Assembly (NCBI GenBank): GCA_025603075.1
Contig: MU626313.1
Location: 1 to 64,000, forward strand
DNA from: Neoconidiobolus thromboides FSU 785
Taxonomy: Eukaryota > Entomophthoromycota > Entomophthoromycetes > Entomophthorales > Neoconidiobolaceae
DNA: 64,000 bases
Direction: 5' to 3'
The position numbers and the translations under genes were made by a program. Under the pieces are notes generated by a model that was not told the origin of the DNA, did no database searches, and worked only from the letters and a program-made list of their open reading frames with translations. Positions 1,826 through 61,278 of the stretch are shown here, piece after piece; the stretch's first letter is position 1; each line of letters opens with the position of its first letter.

Positions 1826-1897
1826 AGGACCCACCGAGAATCGAACTCGGATTACAAGGATCAAAACCTTGGGTGCTAACCATTACACCATGGATCC
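1826..1897 (-). tRNA. tRNA-Gln (anticodon TTG)
   Basis: The minus strand reads GGATCCATGGTGTAATGG at the 5' end and closes a seven-pair acceptor stem with TGGGTCC, discriminator T. The anticodon stem CAAGG/CCTTG encloses loop TTTTGAT, giving anticodon TTG (Gln, CAA). The T arm has the B-box GTTCGATTC. A T run follows directly as a Pol III terminator. There is no intron. The gene is identical to the plus-strand copy at 8037-8108. Confidence 0.96.
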
Positions 1898-8036: not shown

Positions 8037-8108
8037 GGATCCATGGTGTAATGGTTAGCACCCAAGGTTTTGATCCTTGTAATCCGAGTTCGATTCTCGG
8101 TGGGTCCT
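8037..8108 (+). tRNA. tRNA-Gln (anticodon TTG)
   Basis: Same 72-nt sequence as the minus-strand gene at 1826-1897: acceptor GGATCCA/TGGGTCC, anticodon loop TTTTGAT, T-arm GTTCGATTC. A T-rich stretch follows. No intron. Confidence 0.96.
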
Positions 8109-58885: not shown

Positions 58886-59620
58886 ATGGTATATTTATTA
58901 AGTATAATAAATCAAGAAGGGATTGAAAGATATAACAAATTATTTCAGCCAGTAATTTTCAAAAAGGCCGAGGAGTATAATCAATTTAAAGATACTTTGT
59001 TTGATATACTATCTAATAGAGAAGAATATGAAGTAAATCTAATGTGAAATTTAGTTTATTTTTATAAATATAAATAGGGTCCTATATTTGAATTTCATAA
59101 TACTGAGAATATGATTGGTATATATATATATATTAAAGGTGATATTTATCGTTTGTAGTCTATAAGAAGTTTGCTTCGTTATATTTCATGGCATATATTA
59201 ATCCTAAAGAAGTAAGAGCTTTTATTTACTTTATTCAATTATTTACTTTCATAGAACGAATTCGAAGTATTGGACATTTTAAACCATATAATGGGTATAT
59301 TATTATCATTTTTTTAAACTTGATTTTAATGATAAATAGAGACCTTAAGCATTTCGTTTGAAAGCTTTGTAAGAAAATTTTATTGTTAGCCATTTTTCAA
59401 GCTAATTTGTGTTTTTAGTGCGAATTAGATATATCCTTTTTTGAAAAATAATCTATTACATAATCATAGTAAAAAGACTATTTCCTTAACCACTATATAC
59501 ATTATATATCACTTAGATAAGGTAAACTTAATTATTAGTGAGTTTTTCAATATCAATGGGGAAATTCAAGCAACGGATCCTATTCAAATACTAACTTCAA
59601 TTGAACAATTTGAGGAGTAA
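58886..59620 (+). CDS. Adaptor-complex small (sigma) subunit, with a U12-type intron
   Basis: Seven exons: 58886-59032, 59078-59117, 59159-59211, 59255-59294, 59340-59368, 59419-59430, 59501-59620; 146 aa. No long open frame exists, but the joined product follows the clathrin-adaptor sigma family from end to end. It starts MVYLLSIINQEGIERYNKLF; MIVYKKFASLYFMAYI matches the YKRYASLYF block; ENEFEVLDILNHIMETL matches the NELxxLExIHxxVE block. CELD then joins IIYHLDKVNLIISEF, matching CELDIIFNFEKAYFILDEF-type sequences, and GEIQATD matches GEIQETS. Sigma subunits form the core of AP coats on Golgi/endosomes. AP-1, AP-2 or AP-4 type cannot be decided. Exon 6 is only 12 nt and is followed by an AT-AC intron; with ordinary GT-AG rules the last two exons cannot be joined. 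Confidence 0.85.
59431..59500 (+). other. U12-type (AT-AC) spliceosomal intron
   Basis: The 70-bp intron begins ATATCCTTTT, the exact minor-spliceosome donor consensus. It contains TTCCTTAAC at 59482-59490, the exact U12 branch-site consensus, and ends TATATAC with the AC 11 nt after the branch A. Splicing joins CELD to IIYHLDK in phase 0, restoring the sigma-subunit sequence without gap. Confidence 0.88.
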
Positions 59621-60572
59621 CACAAACCCGATTAATATTTTGTAAGGTAAGGTTTTTTATAGTTTAAAGGCCGATATTCCAAATATTGTATATTCGCTTA
59701 TAATTGTTAGTATATAGTGGGTTTGAAATTGTTTCTTACAAGACATTAAACATTATATTTATAGATTTGATTAGAAAAGGGGTTTTTTTTTATGTGCCTT
59801 TTTTATCTGGTCATACATTCAATTATATGTATTTATAAAACTTGTAGTTATTTTACCCTTATGAGTCAAGGAATTAAAGGTGGGGTTTAATAATTTGTTA
59901 GATATTACTATTTCATTTTATATTAGCAAATTTTAAGCGTTCTACCTTATTAAAAGATAATTATTATACTTTAGTGTTTTTTCATATTATTGGTATTTGT
60001 TTTTTAATCATTTGTTATAGTTTTGTTTATTTAGTTATATTTGTTATTTTCAACTTTAATACAGCTCATTAATTAACTTTCAATTCGATTTATAGTAATC
60101 ATGAAGTTTTTAAATATGCTACCATTCATTTTATTTCTAGAGTACAGTTATTTATACTAACATTTAAAAAATAAACATAAAAAGATATTTTATATTCTAA
60201 TAATTTTTATCATATATTTAAAGGATAAGAAAGGAAAGGAAGATGTAGATCGGTATTTCAATTTTTTTAGCCCTCTTGGTACTCTTCCTGCTTTTTATGC
60301 TCTTGATAGCCATACACTTTTGTCCAGTTTATTGGAAATCTCTGAAAGTATTCTCAGATCACTAAAAGACTCCTAGTTTAAGTATTTATTAAATATTTTA
60401 AGCAACAAAGAAGCAGTAGATTTATAGTCAAAGTCTGCACCTGTGCTTATTAAGCCAAAACCTCGAAGTTTAATTACTTTAAGGTTTGAGAATAAAAATA
60501 TAAAAGAAGAAAGTATTTAATTAGCGTATGAATTTCACGAATTTCATATTGTTACTTCCATTAACAATATAT

Positions 60573-60671
60573 GGGGATGTATTTTTGTGTTTAAGAATTT
60601 TGTTAGCAAATTTTCCGCTTAGATAGCGCTTAAAAAATGGAAGAAATAGTGAAGTTAAAAAAGACACTCCC
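60573..60671 (+). mobile_element. MITE copy, left partner of an inverted pair
   Basis: GGGGATG...CACTCCC, 99 bp, ATAT on both sides; the right ATAT (60672-60675) is also the left flank of the next copy. Confidence 0.93.
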
Positions 60672-60675
60672 ATAT

Positions 60676-60774
60676 GGTGATGTTTTTTTTGGCCTCATTG
60701 CTTTTTCTATCTTTTAAGCGCTATTTAAGTGGAAAAATCGTCAGCAAAGTCCTTAAATCCTTAAATACATCCCC
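60676..60774 (-). mobile_element. MITE copy, right partner of an inverted pair
   Basis: GGTGATG...CATCCCC, 99 bp, ATAT on both sides; head to head with the preceding copy. Confidence 0.93.
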
Positions 60775-61278
60775 ATATATATCCTTAAGTTATATTTATA
60801 CACAAGATTTCCTCTAATTAAAAATGCATTTTATAAAGAATGCTGCTATAACTACTTTGAGTAATATTTAAATATCAAATTAAAAAGACTGTCACAGCTA
60901 TTTTACTTTTATATACTTAAATACAGCCTACCATTACTTAGATATTTAATTTCGTTATATAAAAACTTCGATTTTATTATAACCTTAAGTACCAGTTCAA
61001 TACATTTTACCTGTCCTGAAGTATGTAAAAATATCACGTTTAAAGAAGTTAACAAGTATTAATTTAATATAAAAACTCCACTAATATAAATTATATGGTT
61101 CTATCAATATATAGTGTAACTAAAAACAGTGTAAGTACATCCCTTTGCTTATAGTAATTCAAATGTTTAAAAACTATTCAAAGTATGGCTGGCTTCTTTT
61201 AAAGTAAATTATAACTATATACGACTAATTATGTGATAACTAGATAATTGCTTAAATTCATAGTGATTTTTATGATAT

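Follow-up and report, generated by a model that had tools for sequence, protein, structure and literature searches.

A probable U12-type AT-AC intron in an adaptor sigma-subunit gene of Neoconidiobolus thromboides and a U6atac candidate with altered donor-pairing box and catalytic triad

Introduction

Minor introns have been described in several fungi outside the Dikarya. In PMC10639083, 205 minor introns are given for Rhizophagus and 249 for Basidiobolus, all four minor snRNAs are reported in Rhizophagus, and Basidiobolus is placed in Zoopagomycota; PMC2846911 describes minor introns in Rhizopus and Phycomyces. U11 binds the donor and U12 the branch site in other minor introns (PMC3584512). 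Here we describe an intron of Neoconidiobolus thromboides FSU 785 that resembles the U12-type introns likewise present in the non-Dikarya fungi Rhizophagus irregularis, Basidiobolus meristosporus, Rhizopus and Phycomyces (PMC10639083, PMC2846911). A sequence-only reading of the window, i.e. the whole stretch of 64,000 nucleotides analysed here, had valued this intron as a strong lineage marker; with minor introns already published for the above fungi, it is a weaker marker than was claimed. The window lies on contig C56 of a 23.1 Mb genome assembled in 392 contigs, and has a G+C content of 26%.

Among the matches listed in the open-licence literature, no paper joined Neoconidiobolus, Conidiobolus or Entomophthoromycotina with minor introns, U12 or U6atac. 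Similarly, no title or abstract start among the matches listed there for U6atac with AGC triad, or for Physarum with divergent snRNAs, reported a changed U6atac box. Since the literature covered was open-licence only, these results are weak evidence of novelty.

Results

An AT-AC intron in a sigma-subunit gene

The features of the gene and of its AT-AC intron are collected in Table 1. The intron, its donor, its branch site and the AC following the branch A were all found exactly where the sequence-only reading had placed them, and the U12-type donor consensus ATATCCTT was present at 59431-59438. We scanned both strands of the window with a strict motif (ATATCCTTTT, 20-90 nt, TTCCTTAAC, 8-11 nt, AC), which occurred once in the window and in none of 300 dinucleotide shuffles. 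With a relaxed motif there was again a single occurrence, which by itself would not be remarkable because the shuffle mean was 0.37.

Table 1. Positions of the sigma-subunit gene features in the window and of the U6atac candidate
Feature	Position	Strand	Remarks
Sigma exon 1	58886..59032	+	begins with ATG
Sigma exon 2	59078..59117	+	
Sigma exon 3	59159..59211	+	
Sigma exon 4	59255..59294	+	
Sigma exon 5	59340..59368	+	
GT-AG intron	59369..59418	+	directly 5' of the microexon
Sigma exon 6	59419..59430	+	12-nt microexon coding for CELD, which is present in the public protein; flanked by GT-AG and AT-AC introns
U12-type AT-AC intron, phase 0 (probable)	59431..59500	+	70 nt; assigned from its signals and from a spliced product equal to the public protein
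5' splice site ATATCCTTTTTT	59431..59442	+	CCUUUUU pairs with AAAAAGG of the U11 5' end
Branch site TTCCTTAAC	59482..59490	+	branch A at 59489; can pair with GUAAGGA in U12 candidate
3' splice site AC	59499..59500	+	11 nt past the branch A (range sought: some 10-20 nt downstream)
Sigma exon 7	59501..59620	+	IIYHLDK through TAA stop
U6atac candidate	C1:41699-41843		match to Rfam RF00619

Skipping of the 70-nt segment joins CELD to IIYHLDK, as had been proposed from the sequence, and the resulting protein of 146 aa was identical in 146 of 146 residues to a public 'snare-like protein' of N. thromboides FSU 785. The product scored 80.1 bits against the Pfam family Clat_adaptor_s (PF01217), as compared to 55.8 bits when the intron was read through to the stop, and aligned across the AT-AC junction with solved AP-3 sigma. 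Because AT-AC introns are seldom predicted by automatic gene callers, the exact use of this junction in the deposited model suggests that transcript evidence lies behind that model. Taken with the U12-type signals, we consider it very probable that 59431-59500 is a genuine U12-type AT-AC intron in the pre-mRNA of a sigma-subunit gene, which would be removed in the cell by the minor spliceosome.

The closest solved chains were AP-3 sigma-1 (68.5 bits), AP-1 (57), AP-2 (46.7) and AP-4 (46). Other sigma-like genes recognised by eye in the genome were those of AP-2 (C89), AP-3 (C57, plainer), AP-1 (C214) and zeta-COP (C23), and the identity of the sigma protein to the C89, C57 and C214 genes, with pieces joined by eye, was 26.6-36.9%. 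The protein may possibly be the sigma of AP-4, or else another sigma of AP-3-like type or a paralogue.

Two further features of the window were recorded. A palindrome at 60567-60780, 3' of the sigma gene, consists of two 107-nt arms, 76% complementary and without spacer; by eye it resembles dispersed copies (L082, L083 and L091) and has a MITE-like look. Two identical tRNA genes, with anticodon UUG as judged by eye, lie on opposite strands at 1826-1897 (-) and 8037-8108 (+).

Candidate components of a minor spliceosome

The sequence-only reading had predicted a working minor-splicing machinery and had asked for a search of its snRNAs. U11 was found at 65.4 bits, well above the Rfam cut-off of 39, and a U6atac candidate just above its cut-off (33.6 bits against 33, covariance model). 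Candidates for U12 (34.7 bits) and U4atac (40.9 bits) each fell below a cut-off of 53 and had coherent features: the U12 candidate contains GUAAGGA, which can pair with the branch site, and the U4atac candidate carries an Sm-like AAUUUUUGG and pairs with U6atac. The 5' end of U11 reads AAAAAGGGCC, and its AAAAAGG formed seven contiguous pairs with CCUUUUU in all five donors tested; for the donor whose pairing with U6atac is given below, the U11 energy was -4.4 kcal/mol. The element CCCACAA, present only once in the entire window on both strands, was found upstream of both major U6 genes (-62), of the U12 candidate (-60) and of U11 (-72); U6atac has only CCCACTA (-73), and U4atac is without the motif.

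The U12 candidate (L009 1441-1690) was seen to have a U6-like promoter, with CCCACAAG at -60 and CTAAAAAAAA at -25, and it ends in a T run. From these elements, RNA polymerase III may possibly transcribe it, whereas PMC10228655 lists U12 among the products of polymerase II.

A DIM1-family gene at C30, with exons joined by eye, was identified as the orthologue of TXNL4B, since it scored 143 bits with TXNL4B as compared to 71 bits with Dim1; a second DIM1 match, at C35, was stronger than that at C30. TXNL4B is reported as the strongest interactor of CENATAC, which serves A-type minor introns in human cells (PMC8280824), and its orthologue here fits the A-type introns found. For the predicted machinery the genome thus offers U11, candidates for U12, U4atac and U6atac, and TXNL4B; the sole U6atac found is without the donor-pairing box.

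The U6atac candidate and the search for a standard U6atac

In the Rfam alignment, the U6atac consensus GAAAGGAGAGAAGGUUAGCA is replaced by GAGUUGAGAGAUAAUUGGCA in N. thromboides. The 5'-splice-site box thereby reads GUUG in place of the standard AAGG, which pairs with donor CCUU, and the catalytic triad reads GGC in place of AGC. The bulge of the stem-loop, placed by eye, is AC and not AU. Both major U6 genes of the genome are normal, with ACAGAGA and AGC. When aligned to the donor in the standard register, U6atac paired at +4 and +5, and weakly at +8 to +10, with mismatches at +6 and +7, and the energy was +3.2 kcal/mol as compared to -5.8 kcal/mol for the Rfam consensus box placed in that register. 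The sole U6atac found is unable to form the standard pairing with these donors, whereas U11 is able to pair with them.

A shifted register, pairing GAG-A-GAUA with UAUCCUU, gave -2.6 kcal/mol; we doubt it because it would use the catalytic AGAGA. The best U6atac-donor duplexes, at least partly in the shifted register, ranged from -3.9 to -5.3 kcal/mol. For U12/U6atac helix I several registers fit, and we therefore give no detailed model.

Pairing with U4atac is retained. Nucleotides 26-51 of U6atac paired with nucleotides 1-22 of U4atac better than did any of 500 shuffles. The UGCCAAU of U4atac matches AUUGGCA of U6atac, placing a C opposite the changed triad G in a short stem (UUGCCAAU/AUUGGCA, proposed from complementarity), and on account of this match the changed triad base appears to be compensated in U4atac. 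The stem with U4atac 61-95 was less telling, being equalled by 17 of 500 shuffles, and the interaction energy of the two complete RNAs was not decisive, at -15.7 where shuffles averaged -8.0 but the best of 100 reached -18.4. Since U4atac pairing is kept and the triad change is apparently compensated, the candidate does not look like junk; its locus also has a T-run end and a TATA-like element.

Our chief reservation is that the real U6atac may be missing from the assembly or may have slipped through our searches. The locus on C1 would then be a decayed copy or a distant paralogue, and a working standard U6atac would sit in an assembly gap or have been missed by the first-look filter. The score barely above cut-off, the change of two functionally central motifs and an assembly divided over 392 contigs all speak for this. 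The Rfam searches of the whole genome, moreover, scored the best first-look candidates only, being the best 46 of 1136 for U6atac, so that a miss is possible. No standard U6atac was found in the genome with the U6atac and U6 models, the DNA search, the exact pattern or the two-mismatch pattern. The DNA search with the candidate returned only itself. The Rfam U6 model gave seven matches, i.e. two normal U6 genes (both aligned), two likely pseudogenes and three weaker matches, one of which was rescanned and gave no match. With up to two mismatches allowed, the pattern matched 33 times as compared to 12 for the reversed control, and all 33 were scanned as short stretches, the best reaching 19.0, 18.3 and 16.7 bits (cut-off 33). 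This lack of a second copy, the retained U4atac pairing, including the C opposite the changed triad G, and the T-run end and TATA-like element weigh against the decayed-copy explanation, which we regard as rather unlikely.

The exact pattern had two matches, both with wrong spacing and neither matching U6atac; these were discarded. Several of the 33 two-mismatch matches resemble, by eye, copies of one dispersed repeat. The sequences at L056 1501-1602 (-) and L057 1501-1609 (+) are degenerate copies of major U6, probably pseudogenes.

On the boldest reading of these data, N. thromboides would have a minor spliceosome handling mainly or only A-type introns, with a single U6atac that is devoid of the donor-pairing box and has its triad changed from AGC to GGC, and with a compensating change in U4atac; proteins and a longer pairing with U11 would then define the donor. 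We regard this reading as a whole as about as likely as not.

Other minor-intron candidates in the genome

The pattern RTATCCTT N30-60 CCTTRAY matched 46 times in the genome as compared to 13 times for its reversed control. Ten of these combined CC and a directly following run of five or more T with the branch CCTTAAC, and all ten begin with A though the pattern allowed G. An open frame with AC 10-19 nt past the branch A was kept in nine of the ten strict matches, the window intron included; among the ten read, L047 was the sole match without a supporting frame. In four strict matches (L015, L036, L045 and, by eye, L046) an AG slightly downstream was also in frame. Altogether 26 of the 46 matches were read in frame, comprising 25 loci and the window intron.

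The junction of the HBS1 gene aligned without gaps to solved HBS1L and EF1A, and that of MCM9 to solved MCM9. By our readings, further genes with minor introns are probably RAB2, GMF, PPME1 and NR2C2AP, and for RAB2 and GMF, proteins deposited for the same strain support the identity in the parts beyond the minor intron. We take L036 to be PPME1; a comparison of its junction peptide with the PDB gave only unrelated chains and no support for PPME1. L045 is presumably NR2C2AP. L044 and L046 are also among the minor-intron candidate loci.

Eleven of the 46 matches begin with G; six of these were inspected, and none was a convincing G-type minor intron. The conclusion that minor introns here are A-type only is provisional, since it rests on six of the eleven. 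There was no clear enrichment in the genome of donors that would suit the changed U6atac box (RTATCAAY with TCCTTRAC), with 11 matches as compared to 7 for the reversed control.

The deposited models of three genes were checked at their minor introns. The sigma model uses the AT-AC junction exactly. The public model of the GMF-like gene (L016; P0002) reads into the minor intron as coding sequence and places its splice junction at another site, leaving out a segment that we take to be conserved, and by our reading this model is wrong at the minor intron. The public RAB2 model is partial and 5'-truncated, starting downstream of the AT-AC junction; the RAB2-like gene is identical to this partial same-strain protein over 178 residues. 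With the identity of the sigma protein, this marks the genome as that of N. thromboides or of a very near relative.

Major-spliceosome alternatives for the sigma intron

The sole GT within 59419-59500 is at 59469 and follows an in-frame stop, so that CELD is retained only with the AT donor. The sequence-only reading had gone further and held that no GT-AG solution keeps frame, which is incorrect: donor 59369 is in frame with acceptor 59428 as well as with acceptor 59476. The major spliceosome might thus remove a GT-AG intron from 59369, joining SFESF to TISLTTIYIIYHLDK or to a 24-residue insert, in which case the minor spliceosome would be unneeded and the AT-AC match accidental. The in-frame products still scored 61.4 bits (59476; 8 residues inserted) and 53.2 bits (59428; 24 residues inserted) with Clat_adaptor_s. 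However, both lose the conserved CELD and gain residues, and they fall 19 and 27 bits short of the AT-AC product; the deposited protein has CELD and neither insert, and an accidental match is at odds with a strict motif absent from every shuffle. We therefore consider GT-AG removal highly improbable.

A few AT-AC introns are U2-type and are substrates of the major spliceosome, and terminal dinucleotides by themselves do not fix the class of an intron; the abnormal U6atac also speaks for such a route here. However, major-spliceosome removal of a real AT-AC intron is very hard to reconcile with the long U12-type donor and branch consensus at 11-nt spacing, with perfect donor complementarity to U11 and good branch complementarity to U12, and with a family of similar introns in the genome.

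Discussion

If the sigma intron is a minor intron, its donor would be recognised by U11 through the seven contiguous pairs of AAAAAGG with CCUUUUU, which are provided by the donor T run (present in all ten strict matches by selection). U12 would recognise TTCCTTAAC, leaving the branch A bulged; the AC that lies 11 nt beyond this A would serve as acceptor, and ligation would join the CELD microexon to IIYHLDK. U6atac would replace U11 with little base pairing as guide, accepting the donor although its standard pairing there is weak or absent, and would need to be held in place by proteins at the 5' splice site. Because the sole U6atac found mismatches the donor, we infer that specificity may reside with U11 together with proteins, the TXNL4B orthologue perhaps being one of them.

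Incorvaia and Padgett reportedly found in 1998 that activation requires base pairing between U6atac and the 5' splice site. If the above mechanism is true, U6atac acts here without a pairing held to be required in mammals, and recognition by U11 is separable from the hand-over to U6atac, since the introns and U11 keep the standard code. It would also show the extent to which the catalytic triad can change, and would provide, in N. thromboides, a fungus with a small genome in which minor splicing can be studied. The AT-AC intron per se matters less, as it adds one more fungus with minor introns.

Compared with U6atac of RF00619, the N. thromboides candidate is alike in matching the whole model, in its GUGUUG 5' end, AGAGA, U4atac pairing and T-run end, and is unlike in having GUUG for AAGG before AGAGA, GGC for AGC and, by eye, a bulge C for U. 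A standard U6atac would carry AAGGAGAGA and AGC, whereas the candidate carries GUUG and GGC. The minor system of Physarum polycephalum (Larue 2021) reportedly departs from the standard form, a citing paper speaking of divergent minor introns; in N. thromboides, in contrast, the introns look standard and it is U6atac that departs. The Rhizophagus consensus follows that of animals and plants (PMC10639083), whereas in N. thromboides ten of ten strict matches are A-type with at least five T after CC, the T run being a matter of selection. A paper on U6 of Candida albicans and Giardia (PMC3510501) states that no known U6 departs from AGC, whereas the U6atac candidate of N. thromboides has GGC; the same source records for Candida albicans U6 a bulged C in place of U in the stem-loop, as placed by eye in the N. 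thromboides candidate.
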